Assembly (NCBI GenBank): GCA_958295945.1
Contig: OY282386.1
Span: 310,001-374,000, forward strand
Reading direction: 5' to 3'
DNA from: Candidatus Poribacteria bacterium
GTDB lineage: Bacteria > Poribacteria > WGA-4E > WGA-3G
DNA length: 64,000 nucleotides
Under the pieces are notes generated by a model that searched no databases, was not told the origin of the DNA, and saw only the letters and a list, made by a program, of their open reading frames with translations. This document shows, piece after piece, positions 3,211 through 9,567 of the stretch (position 1 is its first letter; every line of letters starts with the position of its first letter). Both the position numbers and the translations under genes were made by a program.

Positions 3211-3395
3211 ACAGGTAATAGTTCTAAAGTTATTCAGATTCGTTTTTTCCTTTGAAACACATAGGTAGGTTTCCTATCAGGATGAAATGTTGGTTTCAAA
3301 CAATTTCTTACCATACATATCTCTTCACATGAGTACTTCCCATTTATTGCCAAAAAAATAAGATTATTCTGCTTAAAAAATAGGCAATAAGTATG

Positions 3396-3448
3396 AGCAG
3401 TTAGTATATTGTACCTTGAATAATATACTAACTGCTTATTTTTTATCT
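3396..3448 (+). terminator. Strong intrinsic terminator between the SDR gene and the nitrate unit
   Basis: AGCAGTTAGTATATT (3396-3410) pairs perfectly with its complement at 3422-3436 across an 11-nt loop, followed by TATTTTTTATC. A-rich sequence on the left side could make it work in both directions. Confidence 0.85.
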
Positions 3449-3458
3449 TTTCTCTGTA

Positions 3459-3478
3459 CTTGGCATTGATATTGCAAT
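3459..3478 (+). promoter_or_regulatory. Sigma-54 (RpoN) type -24/-12 promoter upstream of the nasT-like gene
   Basis: The bases TTGGCATTGATATTGCA (3460-3476) match the TGGCAY-N5-TTGCW consensus. The invariant GG (3462-3463) and GC (3474-3475) are separated by exactly 10 nt, as sigma-54 requires. The site sits just after the terminator and 76 nt before the regulator's start codon. Nitrogen-controlled transcription fits the downstream nitrate genes; an NtrC-type activator site was not identified. Confidence 0.65.
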
Positions 3479-3551: not shown

Positions 3552-4157
3552 ATGGAAGCATTTGCCGAAACGCAACGTATTTTGGTCGTTGATAACAAAT
3601 TGGATAGGATAGAGCTGCTGAACAAAGTTGTGGTAAAATCCAATAGGTACAATGTAATCGCACAAGTGTCCCTAGAACAAGGTCTTATAGAACATGTGAA
3701 ACAGACGAATCCAGATATCATCCTAATATGTGTTGATGCTCCTTGTGATGAGACTTTACACAAAGTTGCGGCTATTAACAATGAACACCCATGTCCGATT
3801 GTAATGTTTGCACAGGATGAGCGTTCAGAGACGATTCAAAATGCAACATTGGCGGGAGTATCCGCGTATGCTGTTGGAGAACTAAGTAAAGAAAGGGTGG
3901 AAACGATTATTGAGGCAGCTATTGCTCGGTTCAAAAGGTTTAGGGAGTTGTTACAAGAACTTGAAAAGACTAAAACGAGTCTTGCAGAACGTAAAGTCAT
4001 TGAACGTGCCAAGGAATTCGTTGCTCAACAACGCGGTATTACGGAGGCAGAAGCCTATCAGGTATTAAGAAAGATGGCAATGGATCGCAGAAAACGTCTT
4101 GCAGAAATCGCACGAGATGTTCTATCTGTTGCTGAAGTATTGACAAAGAAAATGTAA
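3552..4157 (+). CDS. nasT: NasT-like ANTAR-domain transcription antiterminator
   Basis: About 201 residues. The N-terminal receiver-like domain begins 'RILVVDN', but where a phospho-acceptor Asp is expected it reads 'ICVDAPCDE', the degenerate D-x-P form seen in NasT-type regulators. A coiled segment 'RELLQELEKTKTSLAERKVIERAK' divides here into RELLQELEKTKT and SLAERKVIERAK and leads into the ANTAR three-helix RNA-binding domain (about residues 140-195, including 'EAEAYQVLRKMAMD'). NasT proteins bind paired hexaloop RNA hairpins and prevent termination ahead of nitrate genes; such a leader lies directly behind this gene. ATG 3552 is preceded by AGAAAGG; an earlier TTG at 3498 would add residues before the domain. 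The usual partner NasS (nitrate sensor) is not in the window. Confidence 0.85.
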   Translation: MEAFAETQRILVVDNKLDRIELLNKVVVKSNRYNVIAQVSLEQGLIEHVKQTNPDIILICVDAPCDETLHKVAAINNEHPCPIVMFAQDERSETIQNATLAGVSAYAVGELSKERVETIIEAAIARFKRFRELLQELEKTKTSLAERKVIERAKEFVAQQRGITEAEAYQVLRKMAMDRRKRLAEIARDVLSVAEVLTKKM

Positions 4158-4250
4158 GTCGTCGTTCAACGTTGAACATCACGACTGATTTTACTGATAA
4201 ATACAAAGTAGTCCAACCCATGTAGGTTTGGAAACGGACACAGGTGTCCA
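4158..4250 (+). promoter_or_regulatory. ANTAR target RNA leader (two hexaloop hairpins) ahead of nirA
   Basis: Hairpin 1 (4158-4185): GTTC-AACGTT-GAAC inside an outer GTCGT/ACGAC stem, hexaloop 4168-4173 with A at loop position 1 and G at position 4. Hairpin 2 (4236-4249): GGAC-ACAGGT-GTCC, hexaloop 4240-4245, again A1 and G4. These two loop bases are the known ANTAR recognition signature. The 3' arm of hairpin 2 (4246-4249) is also the 5' arm of the downstream terminator, so the two structures exclude each other, as in EutV/NasR/NasT control. Between them an imperfect hairpin (4212-4232) is also possible. The leader starts right at the regulator's stop codon. Confidence 0.75.
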
Positions 4251-4293
4251 TTTGGCAAAAGTATAGCTTTGCTGATGGACGCTTTTTTGTTTT
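4246..4293 (+). terminator. Regulated intrinsic terminator (attenuator) in the nirA leader
   Basis: GTCCAT (4246-4251) pairs with ATGGAC (4275-4280) and inner GCAAA (4255-4259) pairs with TTTGC (4268-4272), followed by GCTTTTTTGTTTT. It shares bases 4246-4249 with the second ANTAR hairpin. Confidence 0.85.
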
Positions 4294-4369
4294 AACAATT
4301 AAATGGAAACAAGAACAATTCTATTTACAACATTAATTGAAACTATAAATATGAAATAGGAGAAGCAAG

Positions 4370-5923
4370 ATGGATAAACTTGAAGCGAAGAAGATAAGAT
4401 TGAAAAGTGATAATAGTAGAAAAAAGAGAAAACCGAAACTTCATCCCGCTGAAGCACTCAAAAGACAGAAAAACGGTCTTGATGTGGTAGACGACATACC
4501 ATACTACGTGAGGAATGGATGGGAATCAATACCCGACACAGAACGCGACAGACTCAAGTATGTTGGTGTCTTTTATCGCAGACAGACACCCGGTGCATTT
4601 ATGATGCGTCTCCGGATGACAAGTGGTATTTCCAATTCAGATCAGTTTCGTACCATCGCATCCATAAGTGATGAACACGGTCCAGGATTTGTTGATCTTA
4701 CAACACGACAACAAATCCAACTGCGTGGTTTTACAATTGAGAACGTGCAGAACATCTGGAATCAACTTGAAGAGGTAGGATTAAACTCGTTACAAACAGG
4801 TTTTGACAATATCAGAGGTGTAACAGGTTGTCCTGTCGCTGGATTTACTCCGAATGAACTATTTAATGCTTCACCTGTAGCAAAGGAATATACAAATATT
4901 ATTGCGGGTAATAAGGAATTCACAGACCTTCCACGAAAATTCAATGTAGGAATTACAGGTTGTTTGGACAATTGCACACACGCCGCTTCACAAGATATTG
5001 CACTCATACCTGCAGTTAGGGAAGATGAAAATCTGGAATCTAAAGGATTTAATGTATTGGTCGGAGGGAAAATGGGTTCTGGAGGTTACACCCCCGCACA
5101 GGAACTTGATGTATTTGTCTTACCTGAAGATGCAGCAGCGTTATGTGCGGAAATTACGTTGATTTTCAGAGATCACGGTCCACGTACAGTTCGTAACAAA
5201 TCACGTATGGCTTTTCTCATAGCAGATTGGGGTGTGGAGAAGTTCAGGAAAGAATTAGAATCTCGTTTTCCAAAACCACTCATATCAGCAGGAAAGGACA
5301 TGCGCGGGAAGAAAAAAACAGACCACACAGGTATTTTCTCACAGAAAGAGAAAAACCATAACTATGTTGGACTTGTGGTGCCAGTAGGTAGAATCAATTC
5401 GGACCAACTACTTGAAGTCGCTCGTATTTCTGATGAATATGGTACTGGAGATATACGTTTGACTCAAGGACAAAATCTGATAGTTCCTAATGTTGCTGAC
5501 CGGAAAATCGGAGATTTAACTGCTGAACCATTACTTCAACAATTACGATATGATTCATCAGAAGTCATGCGTGGCATGGTAAGTTGTACAGGTATTGATT
5601 ACTGCCACTTCTCCCTCATAGAAACCAAAGAACGAGCCCTGGAAGCAATTAGACATTTGGAGTCTAAACTTGGAAATACACAACCACTGACAGTGCATTG
5701 GTCAGGATGTCCAAATGGGTGTGGTAACCATGCCGTTGCTGATATTGGACTGCTTGGGAAGAAAACCAAAATAGATGGTGTGGTTACGGATGCGGTTGAT
5801 GTATTTGTGAAAGGAGATTCTGGTCCAAATTCGAAAGTTGCCCCGAAATTACTGGAAAATGTTCCATGTGATGACTTACCGCAAGTTCTTGAAGGTCTCG
5901 TGCCTTATCTATCAAGAAAATAA
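4370..5923 (+). CDS. nirA: Ferredoxin-nitrite reductase
   Basis: 517-residue siroheme/[4Fe-4S] reductase, a normal NirA length, reducing nitrite to ammonium with six electrons from ferredoxin. The paired ferredoxin-like half-domains are visible, with 'TTRQQIQLRG' in the first and 'RLTQGQNL' in the second. The cluster/siroheme ligands are C406-x5-C412 and C447-x3-C451 in 'SGCPNGCGNH'. Assimilatory sulfite reductase has the same fold, but the NarK and nitrate reductase genes that follow make nitrite the likely substrate. The ribosome site is TAGGAGAAGC before ATG 4370. Expression should depend on the leader at 4158-4293. Confidence 0.9.
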   Translation: MDKLEAKKIRLKSDNSRKKRKPKLHPAEALKRQKNGLDVVDDIPYYVRNGWESIPDTERDRLKYVGVFYRRQTPGAFMMRLRMTSGISNSDQFRTIASISDEHGPGFVDLTTRQQIQLRGFTIENVQNIWNQLEEVGLNSLQTGFDNIRGVTGCPVAGFTPNELFNASPVAKEYTNIIAGNKEFTDLPRKFNVGITGCLDNCTHAASQDIALIPAVREDENLESKGFNVLVGGKMGSGGYTPAQELDVFVLPEDAAALCAEITLIFRDHGPRTVRNKSRMAFLIADWGVEKFRKELESRFPKPLISAGKDMRGKKKTDHTGIFSQKEKNHNYVGLVVPVGRINSDQLLEVARISDEYGTGDIRLTQGQNLIVPNVADRKIGDLTAEPLLQQLRYDSSEVMRGMVSCTGIDYCHFSLIETKERALEAIRHLESKLGNTQPLTVHWSGCPNGCGNHAVADIGLLGKKTKIDGVVTDAVDVFVKGDSGPNSKVAPKLLENVPCDDLPQVLEGLVPYLSRK

Positions 5924-6015: not shown

Positions 6016-7371
6016 ATGGATATAAAGAATAAAGCAACACAGATCAATTTGTTTAATCTGAAATCGGTTCAGATGCGTACTTTTCATACGACATGGTTTG
6101 CATTTTTCTTAGCGTTTTTTGGATGGTTTGGAATCGCACCCCTTATGGCAATTGTGCGCGAAGACTTGATGCTAACACAGGTACAGATCGGAAACACAAT
6201 GATCGCATCCGTTGCAATAACGGTTTTGGTTCGTATCTTAATCGGTCCTTTATGTGATCGTATTGGTGCACGAAAGGCATACACTTGGCTTCTTATTCTG
6301 GGATCAATACCAGTAATGGGTATTGGACTTGCAAAGGATTACCATACCTTTCTTCTTTTCCGTTTAGCAATCGGTGCGATAGGAGCAGGATTTGTCATCA
6401 CACAGTATCACACGTCTGTGATGTTCGCGCCAAATTGTGTTGGCACTGCAAACGCGACGACTGCGGGATGGGGTAATTTAGGTGGTGGTGTTACACAGAT
6501 GGTCATGCCGCTCATTGTTACAGCAGTTCTGAGTTTTGGTGTGAATGAATTTCTCGGATGGCGGTTGGCAATGATTATTCCAGGAATTGCTTTATTTGTG
6601 ATGGGATTCGTCTATTACTTCTGCACTCAAGATGCACCAGATGGAAACTATAGAGAACTTTGTAGGCAAGGTGAGATTGAACCGGCTGAAGGAAAAGGTC
6701 TGGAATCATTCATACTTGCTATTAAAGATTATCGAGTATGGGCACTGTTTTTTATTTATGCAGCCTGTTTTGGTGTGGAACTAACGATAAACAATGTTGC
6801 AGCACTCTACTATCATGACCGCTTCCACTTAGATGATAAAACTGCAGGTTTGATTGCTGGATTGTTCGGTCTCATGAATATCTTTGCGCGTACAGTCGGT
6901 GGTTTTTTCTCGGATTTCTTTGCAAAAAAGATGGGACTGAGAGGTCGTGTCGTATTCCTCTTTGTTGTTCTTTTGGGTGAAGGTATCATGCTTATGGTAT
7001 TCTCACAAATGTCAGTTCTGATTGTGGCAGTTGGAACGATGATTGTGTTCAGTCTCTTTGTTCAGATGTCAGAAGGTGCAACTTTTAGCATTGTCCCATT
7101 TATCAATAGAAAAGCACTAGGTGCGGTTGCAGGAATTGTTGGGGCAGGCGGAAACGCAGGTGCAGTCGCTGCAGGTTTCCTTTTCCGTGCGGAAAGTATA
7201 TCTACTCAACAAGCATTACTCTTTCTTGGTGTTATGGCAGTTATTGCTTCATTTGCGACTTTGTTGGTAAGGTTCTCACCTGCAGTAGAAGATGCGGAGA
7301 AAAAAGCGTTTGCTGCGGCACTTGCAGAAAAGCAACATCTCAATGCAGATACAGGGAATGTAACAGTCTAA
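6016..7371 (+). CDS. narK: NarK/NrtP-type nitrate/nitrite transporter (MFS)
   Basis: 451 residues with about twelve hydrophobic segments, a major-facilitator transporter of the nitrate/nitrite porter family. Signatures are 'DRIGARK' in the loop after the second helix and the glycine-rich 'GWGNLGGGVTQMVMPLI' nitrate motif; a second such stretch, 'GIVGAGGNAGA', is near the C terminus. It brings nitrate into the cytoplasm for the reductases encoded on both sides. AAAGGATAATAAATTAG lies upstream of ATG 6016. The gene is 92 nt after nirA and 69 nt before nasA, with no terminator seen between them. Confidence 0.92.
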   Translation: MDIKNKATQINLFNLKSVQMRTFHTTWFAFFLAFFGWFGIAPLMAIVREDLMLTQVQIGNTMIASVAITVLVRILIGPLCDRIGARKAYTWLLILGSIPVMGIGLAKDYHTFLLFRLAIGAIGAGFVITQYHTSVMFAPNCVGTANATTAGWGNLGGGVTQMVMPLIVTAVLSFGVNEFLGWRLAMIIPGIALFVMGFVYYFCTQDAPDGNYRELCRQGEIEPAEGKGLESFILAIKDYRVWALFFIYAACFGVELTINNVAALYYHDRFHLDDKTAGLIAGLFGLMNIFARTVGGFFSDFFAKKMGLRGRVVFLFVVLLGEGIMLMVFSQMSVLIVAVGTMIVFSLFVQMSEGATFSIVPFINRKALGAVAGIVGAGGNAGAVAAGFLFRAESISTQQALLFLGVMAVIASFATLLVRFSPAVEDAEKKAFAAALAEKQHLNADTGNVTV

Positions 7372-7440: not shown

Positions 7441-9567
7441 ATGGAGAAATCAGTGAAAAGTTCAACAGGAAAAGCCGTTTGTCCTTATTGTGGTGTCGGC
7501 TGTGTTATCCGTGCCAGTGTTGAGGATAACAAAATTACGAGAATTTCAGCCGACGATAGTGATGAACCGAATTTCGGAATGCTTTGTCCGAAAGGTGCAC
7601 ATCTCAAACAGGTGTTTCAGAATCATGATGGTAGGCTGGCATACCCAATGATCCGAGAGAATAAGGATGAAGACCTACGTCAAGTTTCTTGGGAACAAGC
7701 TATTGCATTTACAGCGAATCGTATGCAAGCTATTAGGTTGGAACACGGAAAAGATGCGCTTGCACTCTACGGTTCCGGTCAATTGGATACAGAAACTTCT
7801 TACGTTTTTAATAAATTGTTTAAGGGTTTTCTACGGACAAATAATATAGATACAAATAGTAGACTCTGTATGTCATCTGCAGTTGTGGGTTATATTCAGG
7901 CTTTCGGTTCAGATGGTCCACCGACATGTTATGACGACATTCAACATGCGGATGTATTTCTGATTATCGGTGCGAATATGGCAGTTAACCATCCTGTTCT
8001 ATTTCAGATGATACGAAAACGGCGTGCATCAGAACCTAACACCCGCATTATTGCAGTAGACCCGCGACGGACCAAAACTGCAGAGTTTTCTGATGTTCAT
8101 GTGCCGCTTGCACCTGGAAGTGATGTGGCTTTTTTACAACTGATAGCCAAACGTCTTCTTGAGAACGGACGGTCTGACAAGCGTTTTATTCAAAGAAACA
8201 CAGAAAACTATAGTGCATATAAACATCAACTTGAATGTCTTGACGAAGGGACATTGCTTTCTATCTGTGATATTCATCCAGGTCGTATAGATGAAATAGT
8301 TGAATTTCTATCAAAACCAAGCAGTCGGTTACTTAGTTTTTACTGTCAAGGCACAAATCAGAGTACAAGTGGCGTAGAAAAGAATAACGCTCTTATCAAT
8401 TTACATCTTCAGTTAGGTGAGGTAGGTAAAAGTGGTTCAGGTCCATTTTCACTAACAGGTCAACCGAATGCAATGGGTGGTAGAGAGGTAGGTTATCTAT
8501 CTCACCAGTTGCCCGGTTATCGAGTTGTAACAAACGATATGCATCGTGCTTATCTTGAAGGTGCGTGGCGAATTCCACCGGGAAGCATTGATCCGGAACC
8601 GGGGTTGACTGCAGTTCCGATGTTTGAAGCCGCCGCTGCAGGTGATGTACGTGCTCTCTGGATTGTATGTACGAATCCTGCTGTGAGTATGCCCGATACA
8701 AAGGTTTCTCAAGCAGGGTTAAAATGTGCTGACTTAGTGATTGTTCAAGACTGTTATTATCCGACTGAAACAGCAGAATATGCTGATGTTCTCCTTCCCG
8801 CTGCACAGTGGGGTGAAAAACGTGGGACTATGACGAATAGTGAACGTTTGGTTGTGCGAAGTGAGAAATTCCTTGAACCACCGGGGGAAGCAAAACCTGA
8901 TTGGTGGATATTCTCTCAAATTGCAAAGGTGATGGGATACAAACGAGACTTTGATTTTCATTCTCACGAAGAAATATGGGATGAATATCGATTGTTGACT
9001 GCAGGAACTCCTTGCGATCAGATGGGAATGACGAATGAACGACTTAAGACGACATCACTCCGTTGGCCCTGTCCTCATCAACGACATCCTGGAACACTTC
9101 GCAGATATACACGAAGGAAGTTCTTCACACCATCTGGTAAAGCACAATTTAAAACTCCTGTCTACAAACCACCTGATGAGACAACTGATGAAGATTATCC
9201 ATTGGGATTGACCACTGGTCGCGTTGCAAGTCAATGGCATACACGGACACGGACGGGTAAAGTTCCACAACTCACGAAAAAGGATCCAGAACCTTTTGTT
9301 GAAATGCATCCAGATGATGCTATTGAAAACAGTGTGGTTGATGGTGAGTGGATTTATATTGTAGGACGAAGAGGAAGATGTTATGCGCGTGCGCGTGTTA
9401 CTGATACTATTCGTCGTGGATTATTGTTCACTCCGTTTCATTGGGGTGATCTGTTTCACGCGGAGACAAATGCGAATTATGTGACAAATTCAGCGTTTGA
9501 TCCTGTGTCTAAACAACCGGAGTTGAAGTTCTGCGCTGTGCGGATTGAATCAAGTGATATGTCGTAG
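7441..9567 (+). CDS. nasA: Assimilatory nitrate reductase, catalytic molybdopterin subunit
   Basis: 708-residue bis-MGD oxidoreductase, the size of NasA/NarB. The N-terminal [4Fe-4S] cluster is held by C14, C17, C21 and C49. C143 in 'SRLCMSSAV' is the expected molybdenum ligand. A molydopterin-dinucleotide binding domain with 'LTTGRVASQWHTRTRTGK' split as LTTGRVASQWH and TRTRTGK lies near residue 580. No C-terminal NADH/FAD module or BFD-like [2Fe-2S] domain is seen, so ferredoxin or flavodoxin is the likely electron donor, matching NirA. It reduces nitrate to nitrite in the cytoplasm; no Tat signal is present. It closes the nirA-narK-nasA unit. Confidence 0.9.
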   Translation: MEKSVKSSTGKAVCPYCGVGCVIRASVEDNKITRISADDSDEPNFGMLCPKGAHLKQVFQNHDGRLAYPMIRENKDEDLRQVSWEQAIAFTANRMQAIRLEHGKDALALYGSGQLDTETSYVFNKLFKGFLRTNNIDTNSRLCMSSAVVGYIQAFGSDGPPTCYDDIQHADVFLIIGANMAVNHPVLFQMIRKRRASEPNTRIIAVDPRRTKTAEFSDVHVPLAPGSDVAFLQLIAKRLLENGRSDKRFIQRNTENYSAYKHQLECLDEGTLLSICDIHPGRIDEIVEFLSKPSSRLLSFYCQGTNQSTSGVEKNNALINLHLQLGEVGKSGSGPFSLTGQPNAMGGREVGYLSHQLPGYRVVTNDMHRAYLEGAWRIPPGSIDPEPGLTAVPMFEAAAAGDVRALWIVCTNPAVSMPDTKVSQAGLKCADLVIVQDCYYPTETAEYADVLLPAAQWGEKRGTMTNSERLVVRSEKFLEPPGEAKPDWWIFSQIAKVMGYKRDFDFHSHEEIWDEYRLLTAGTPCDQMGMTNERLKTTSLRWPCPHQRHPGTLRRYTRRKFFTPSGKAQFKTPVYKPPDETTDEDYPLGLTTGRVASQWHTRTRTGKVPQLTKKDPEPFVEMHPDDAIENSVVDGEWIYIVGRRGRCYARARVTDTIRRGLLFTPFHWGDLFHAETNANYVTNSAFDPVSKQPELKFCAVRIESSDMS

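Follow-up and report, generated by a model that had tools for sequence, protein, structure and literature searches.

Between the gene of an ANTAR regulator and the nitrite reductase gene nirA, a genome of Candidatus Poribacteria carries a short stretch of hairpin-rich sequence, which raises the question of whether this RNA is a target of the regulator encoded directly upstream and, if so, how it governs the nitrate genes that follow. The window, that is, the whole 64-kb stretch of DNA analysed (G000:C1:310001-374000), belongs to a 5.34-Mb single-contig genome in which the ANTAR gene at 3552-4157 is the only one; the leader (4158-4288) is placed between this gene and nirA. A first-pass annotation had read the leader as a site of ANTAR antitermination, and the hexaloops, the overlap of the last hairpin with the terminator and their conservation in relatives lend weight to that reading. 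On this sequence evidence we consider it probable, at roughly 0.8, that the element is an ANTAR-protein antitermination leader with three hexaloops controlling nirA-narK-nasA. The features of the locus, all on the forward strand, are as follows.

3393-3439, +, intrinsic-terminator-like hairpin separating the unit from an upstream SDR gene (20-pair stem with 4 GC pairs, then a T run; weak on its own, as shuffles give 2 per region by chance)
3461-3476, +, sigma-54 (-24/-12) promoter-like site TGGCATTGATATTGCA, 91 bases 5' of the regulator start
3552-4157, +, NasT-like ANTAR regulator with a degenerate REC and an ANTAR domain (Pfam PF03861, E 9.5e-18, 64.2 bits against a cut-off of 27.3)
4158-4186, +, P0, extra upstream hairpin, hexaloop AACGTT (4168-4173) with A1 and G4 (folding, conservation in relatives, inner-stem pairing)
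4213-4231, +, P1, middle hairpin, hexaloop CATGTA (4219-4224) with C1 and G4 (relatives carry AATGTA and similar; inside an RNA-model match of E 2.2e-16 in the window's own genome)
4232-4235, +, P1-P2 linker, 4 nt (2-4 nt in relatives; leader comparison)
4236-4249, +, P2, antiterminator hairpin, hexaloop ACAGGT (4240-4245)
4242-4288, +, intrinsic terminator, in which AGGTGTCCAT (half of the P2 loop and the 3' arm) pairs with ATGGACGCTT; U tract at 4283-4288
4370-5923, +, nirA, ferredoxin-type nitrite reductase (profile match; synteny in relatives)
6016-7371, +, narK-like nitrate/nitrite MFS transporter (TIGR00886, E 8e-92; synteny)
7441-9567, +, nasA/nasC-like molybdopterin oxidoreductase (profile matches; synteny)

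The order regulator-leader-nirA-narK-nasA is kept among the poribacterial relatives in the synteny comparison. The best profile match of NirA (NF007125, E 3e-164) lies under the curated cut-off of that model, and the oxidoreductase at 7441-9567 is assigned as assimilatory nitrate reductase by context, Fdh-alpha also being close. In one relative (L075), only the last ~67 codons of nirA remain ~590 bases past the regulator stop, with the leader intact; this remnant reflects either decay or an assembly gap. Elsewhere in the window, an ORF at 1530-2486, which we take to resemble a PD-(D/E)XK/Rpn-type protein, has a tandem GISQ repeat (SQGISQGISQGISQG) close to its C-terminus.

Hairpins and terminator of the leader

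The leader folds better than 200/200 of its dinucleotide shuffles (z = -3.6). Both hairpins named by the first-pass annotation are present and carry A1/G4 hexaloops (4158-4186 and 4236-4249). The first, P0, consists of an inner hairpin, GTTC[AACGTT]GAAC (4164-4177; loops in square brackets), and an outer stem (4158-4186) that begins, as had been noted, at the regulator stop codon, directly 3' of the gene end at 4157. The second, P2 (GGAC[ACAGGT]GTCC, 4236-4249), does share its 3' arm with an intrinsic terminator: GTCCAT (4246-4251) serves as both the 3' arm of P2 and the 5' arm of the terminator, the core of which is GTCCAT(n23)ATGGAC (4246-4280), with GC and six T directly 3'. The 50 nt between these two hairpins had been taken for an unusually long linker. 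This segment in fact contains a further hairpin, P1 (CCAACC[CATGTA]GGTTTGG, 4213-4231), and the true linker, between P1 and P2, measures 4 nt. Among the 30 related genomes compared, P1 reads CCCAACC[AATGTA]GGTTTGGG and variants of this, immediately 5' of P2; the loop in the window differs from AATGTA at the first base only. This C1 in place of A1, found also in L037, probably explains why P1 was overlooked earlier, whereas G4 is present in P0, P1 and P2 of the window. P1 and P2, 4 nt apart, are thus the predicted canonical ANTAR dual motif and P0 is an additional third hexaloop, so that of the pair originally proposed the second member stands as P2 and the first is an extra hairpin rather than the canonical partner. 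An Rfam search of the window gave no match reaching the gathering threshold, and a lenient search of the leader returned ES205 alone (21.9 bits, where the cut-off is 86).

Fifty-one distinct poribacterial leaders were compared; as they are related to each other, the number of leaders with a feature does not give a number of independent events. In the P1/P2 alignment, 94.1% of cells pair; shuffled columns reach 90.1% and slid controls no more than 49%. The P2 end pair is G-C, A-U or G-U (20, 13 and 3, respectively), and the shared base in the P2 3' arm covaries with both of its partners, the one in P2 and the one in the terminator: it is C opposite G and G in 30 leaders, and in the remaining 21 it is T, opposite A or G. 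The terminator core pairs at 6/6 positions in 51/51 leaders, and P2 loop positions 4-6 also pair with the terminator 3' arm in all 51 (position 3 in 50). At the level of predicted pairing, the terminator and P2 are shown to be mutually exclusive. The P2 loop has A1 and G4 in 51/51 leaders and is nearly fixed as A-x-A-G-G-[UC], unlike the loops of P0 and P1. In ANTAR complexes a tyrosine stacks on the hexaloop G (PMC8934654); in P2 the half of the loop that holds G4 is also buried in the terminator pairing, which would account for its near-invariance. Six leaders (L049, L052, L057, L058, L061 and L062) have a terminator loop enlarged by a nested insert of ~25-40 nt, with the six core pairs intact.

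A covariance model built from P1-P2 was scanned over 60 relatives, where all matches with E ≤5e-11 adjoin an ANTAR gene. Such matches occur in 30 ANTAR-bearing genomes, the window's own included; ANTAR-bearing genomes with a broken P1 give weak scores, and in ANTAR-less genomes the best match (6.7e-5) is at noise level. A second candidate in the window's own genome (G000:C1:1352948, E 7e-5) lies within coding sequence and was rejected as noise, the same conserved protein stretch being matched in an ANTAR-less genome; this candidate thereby defines the noise level. Another twelve weak matches in relatives are without the hairpin-terminator arrangement. One relative probably has a genuine second ANTAR site (L152, G024:C1:1137000-1140000, minus strand, ~1370-1605), to judge from a sigma-54 site (TGGCACATTTTTTGCT), a P1 (GTGGAGCC[AACGTT]GGTTCCGC), a P2 (ATCGAC[AGAGGT]GTCGAT) and a terminator that precede an outer-membrane-porin-like ORF of 415 aa; if the site is genuine, the regulator must act in trans there.

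The third hexaloop among relatives

All three hairpins are present in 34/51 leaders; eight have P1 and P2 without P0, another eight have P0 and P2 with the 3' arm of P1 interrupted by an insertion, and one (L047) has a P0 with a five-base loop and a P1 with an insertion. P0 is thus conserved in 42/51 leaders, as is the combination of P1 and P2. Loops and pairing hold up in related genomes when compared upstream of nirA, the point on which the earlier reading could have failed. The P1 loop has A1 in 40/42 leaders; its G4 count is not independent, as the search required G4.

The two-hairpin alternative holds that P1 and P2 form a canonical leader by themselves and that P0, where the regulator gene ends, is a hairpin unrelated to them, such as an mRNA-stability element or an old terminator. 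The P1-P2 spacing of 4 nt is of a kind known to work, eight leaders manage without P0, and the distance from the regulator stop codon to P0 varies from 13 to 155 nt. However, no U tract lies 3' of P0, and its loop behaves as a hexaloop: searched with free loop letters, it keeps A1 in 37/40, A2 in 37/40 and G4 in 38/40 leaders, with positions 3 and 5 mixed. Moreover, an A1/G4 hexaloop (stem of at least 4) lies 5' of P1/P2 in 39/51 leaders where dinucleotide shuffles predict 5.5, and is therefore not a product of chance; and the eight leaders with a broken P1 have an intact P0. An unrelated P0 is, on balance, distinctly unlikely. Its pairing is weaker than that of P1 and P2: 86.4% of cells in the inner stem pair, both sides change at three pairs, covariation is modestly above shuffles, and the outer stem has no common register across clades. 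In the 34/51 three-hexaloop leaders, the third hexaloop lies ~35-140 nt upstream.

On the regulator tree, the three-hexaloop state is basal for the Poribacteria; two clades have lost P0, and others have a broken P1. As these changes fall in separate clades, neither P0 nor P1 is indispensable. The stronger proposition, that loss of P0 and loss of P1 exclude each other, was dropped for want of statistical support, the clade-level events being few and L047 having both altered.

P0 might instead serve autoregulation or sequestration: the regulator would bind its own mRNA at the 3' terminus, the terminated short RNA included, which would tune its free level instead of aiding antitermination. P0 would indeed lie on the terminated short transcript, and an extra hexaloop has been proposed in the EutV-sequestering small RNA EutX (PMC8934654). 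Autoregulation in the phylum is also made probable by one poribacterial genus (L003, L078 and L093) in which a single hexaloop, GGAC[AAAGGC]GTCC, and a terminator stand between the end of an amtB-like gene and the ANTAR gene, an arrangement that suggests direct autoregulation there. (In the same loci, the gene 3' of the leader resembles nirB, not nirA.) Against this, the short RNA would also carry P1 and part of P2 after termination, so that P0 is not needed for the purpose, and in the clades with a broken P1, P0 and P2 are the sole intact hexaloops, as though P0 had replaced P1. We regard this role for P0 as unlikely.

Promoter, regulator and proposed mechanism

The site TGGCATTGATATTGCA is the sole sigma-54 match in the 64-kb window, where 0.17 would be expected, and an RpoN gene is present in the genome. 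A sigma-54 site occurs at the matching place 5' of the regulator in 48/52 poribacterial loci, the genus of L003, L078 and L093 being without one; the background elsewhere in these loci is 3 in 89 kb. The 52nd locus (L048) is one in which insertion-element-like sequence (4601-5100) separates the regulator from the leader: it has lost P0 and keeps P1, P2, the terminator and nirA intact. Over the 620 bases that follow the regulator stop, none of the 52 loci has a sigma-54 site scoring at least 10/12. With a sigma-54 site 5' of the regulator and none between leader and nirA, it is likely that regulator, leader and nirA-narK-nasA form one transcript, as the first-pass annotation had supposed.

The competing arrangement, in which nirA is served by a promoter of its own and transcription of the leader is separate from that of the regulator gene, has a precedent in Betaproteobacteria, where most nasT loci carry a sigma-54 site 3' of nasT and ahead of a two-hexaloop leader. 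In the window, one weak sigma-70-like match (4292-4319) lies 3' of the terminator. Such matches are, however, no commoner than chance (7 found, 8.1 expected), P0 starts a single base past the stop codon, and the 52 poribacterial loci lack the betaproteobacterial sigma-54 site. A promoter between leader and nirA had been named earlier as grounds for abandoning the single transcript; it is not borne out for sigma-54, though a promoter of another type may lie there; separate transcription is very unlikely overall. The idea that a regulator encoded within its own target transcript is unique to Poribacteria was given up, as gammaproteobacterial loci (L079, L081, L083, L086 and L089) share the layout, with the sigma-54 site solely 5' of nasT.

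Among solved structures in the PDB, the regulator resembles EutV (6wsh), Rv1626 (1s8n) and, in its ANTAR part, NasR (4akk), and also AmiR. The RNA-contact residues of EutV, Arg142, Lys143, Lys149, Glu160, Tyr164 and Met172, correspond to R147, K148, K154, E165, Y169 and M177, which are invariant across nine relatives; Lys147 of EutV is replaced by Arg. The conserved phospho-acceptor residues of a EutV-type REC domain are absent, Asp being replaced by Cys, Thr/Ser by Phe and Lys by Gly. The phospho-Asp position is Gly, Cys or Asn in 51/51 poribacterial regulators (Gly in 48/51); the Asp is kept in 31/33 proteobacterial relatives. The nearest non-poribacterial relatives are proteobacterial nasT-like genes, with at most 44% identity, and like NasT the regulator is a REC+ANTAR protein encoded beside nitrate assimilation genes. 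The absence of NasS, reported earlier, extends to the whole 5.34-Mb genome, in which a search for NasS/NrtA-like proteins (PF13379) gave 0 matches. Strong PF13379 matches (E 5e-21 to 3e-16) are confined to three relatives that have no ANTAR gene; none was found in the ANTAR-bearing relatives.

From these sequences we infer regulator binding, transcript structure, termination efficiency, transcript ends, the role of P0 and a delay, which would combine as follows. Polymerase would start at the sigma-54 promoter 5' of the regulator and transcribe the regulator gene, then the three hairpins and the terminator. Unless active regulator is present, the terminator would form and take up the 3' arm of P2 together with the G4-bearing half of the P2 loop, and the regulator mRNA alone would be made. 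Active regulator, probably as a dimer, would grip hexaloops on the nascent RNA, with P0 and P1 serving recruitment; once it held P2, the terminator would be blocked and polymerase would read through into the nitrate genes. As the regulator would act on the mRNA that encodes it, control of initiation by nitrogen status via sigma-54 would be followed by a build-up of regulator before the enzymes are made. A bolder extension, tentative and in our estimate rather improbable, is that any two of the three hexaloops suffice, the distal P0 replacing P1 from ~100-240 nt because the intervening RNA is folded, and that the NasS-less, phospho-dead regulator has no classical sensor, the signal being either the build-up of the regulator made from the common sigma-54 transcript or a ligand that binds its degenerate REC domain; such an operon would be a circuit that times itself.

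Comparison with known systems

The leader shares with the ANTAR dual-hairpin RNAs of Enterococcus eut (EutV), Klebsiella nasF (NasR) and Pseudomonas amiE (AmiR) the A1/G4 hexaloops, a short final linker (2-4 nt here), a last hairpin overlapping an intrinsic terminator and the RNA-contact residues of the protein (PMC3369931, PMC8934654). Paired A1/G4 hexaloops in 42/51 leaders, a short linker and the predicted exclusion between P2 and terminator in 51/51 all agree with an ANTAR target. Hexaloop linkers are 5-12 nt long in eut leaders (PMC3369931) and 2-25 nt in an actinobacterial curation (PMC8164766); the eight leaders with a broken P1 are without such a short linker. The canonical element also has only two hexaloops, whereas the poribacterial leaders have three in 34/51 cases and a broken middle hexaloop in eight. 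The three-hexaloop leader is therefore a variation on known ANTAR antitermination, and the mechanism itself is not new. No description of such a leader was found in the literature searched, outside which most subscription journals lie; the nearest is the extra hexaloop of EutX (PMC8934654). In eut leaders, the spacing of the two hexaloops is critical: induction fell strongly at 14 nt (PMC3369931), antitermination was abolished by the addition of 20 nt (PMC8934654), and an ANTAR dimer has been proposed to visit the hexaloops in turn (PMC3369931, PMC8934654). Leaders with three hexaloops, or with a broken P1 and a distant P0, would offer a natural test of this hand-over model, and the locus would widen the range of a validated form of RNA control to a phylum of uncultured sponge symbionts.

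The NasT-NasS systems of Paracoccus denitrificans (nasTSABGHC) and Bradyrhizobium are alike in having a NasT-like REC+ANTAR regulator beside assimilatory nitrate genes, a leader between regulator and structural genes and a level of control by sigma-54/Ntr (PMC5424462, PMC3795266). By contrast, the poribacterial system lacks NasS, the phospho-Asp and a sigma-54 site of the leader's own; the first two of these absences raise the question of how the regulator senses nitrate. Closest in layout are four gammaproteobacterial nasT loci on MAG contigs (L079, L081, L083 and L089), in which the sigma-54 site lies solely 5' of nasT and the leader directly 3'. These leaders, too, have three hairpins within the first 150-200 bases past nasT: an A1/G4 hexaloop, a middle hairpin and a hexaloop overlapping the terminator. 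Their middle loop, however, is not of the ANTAR type, which leaves two hexaloops at least ~40 nt apart on a structured linker, and the downstream gene, judged by its start, encodes a nitrate-transporter-type binding protein instead of NirA.
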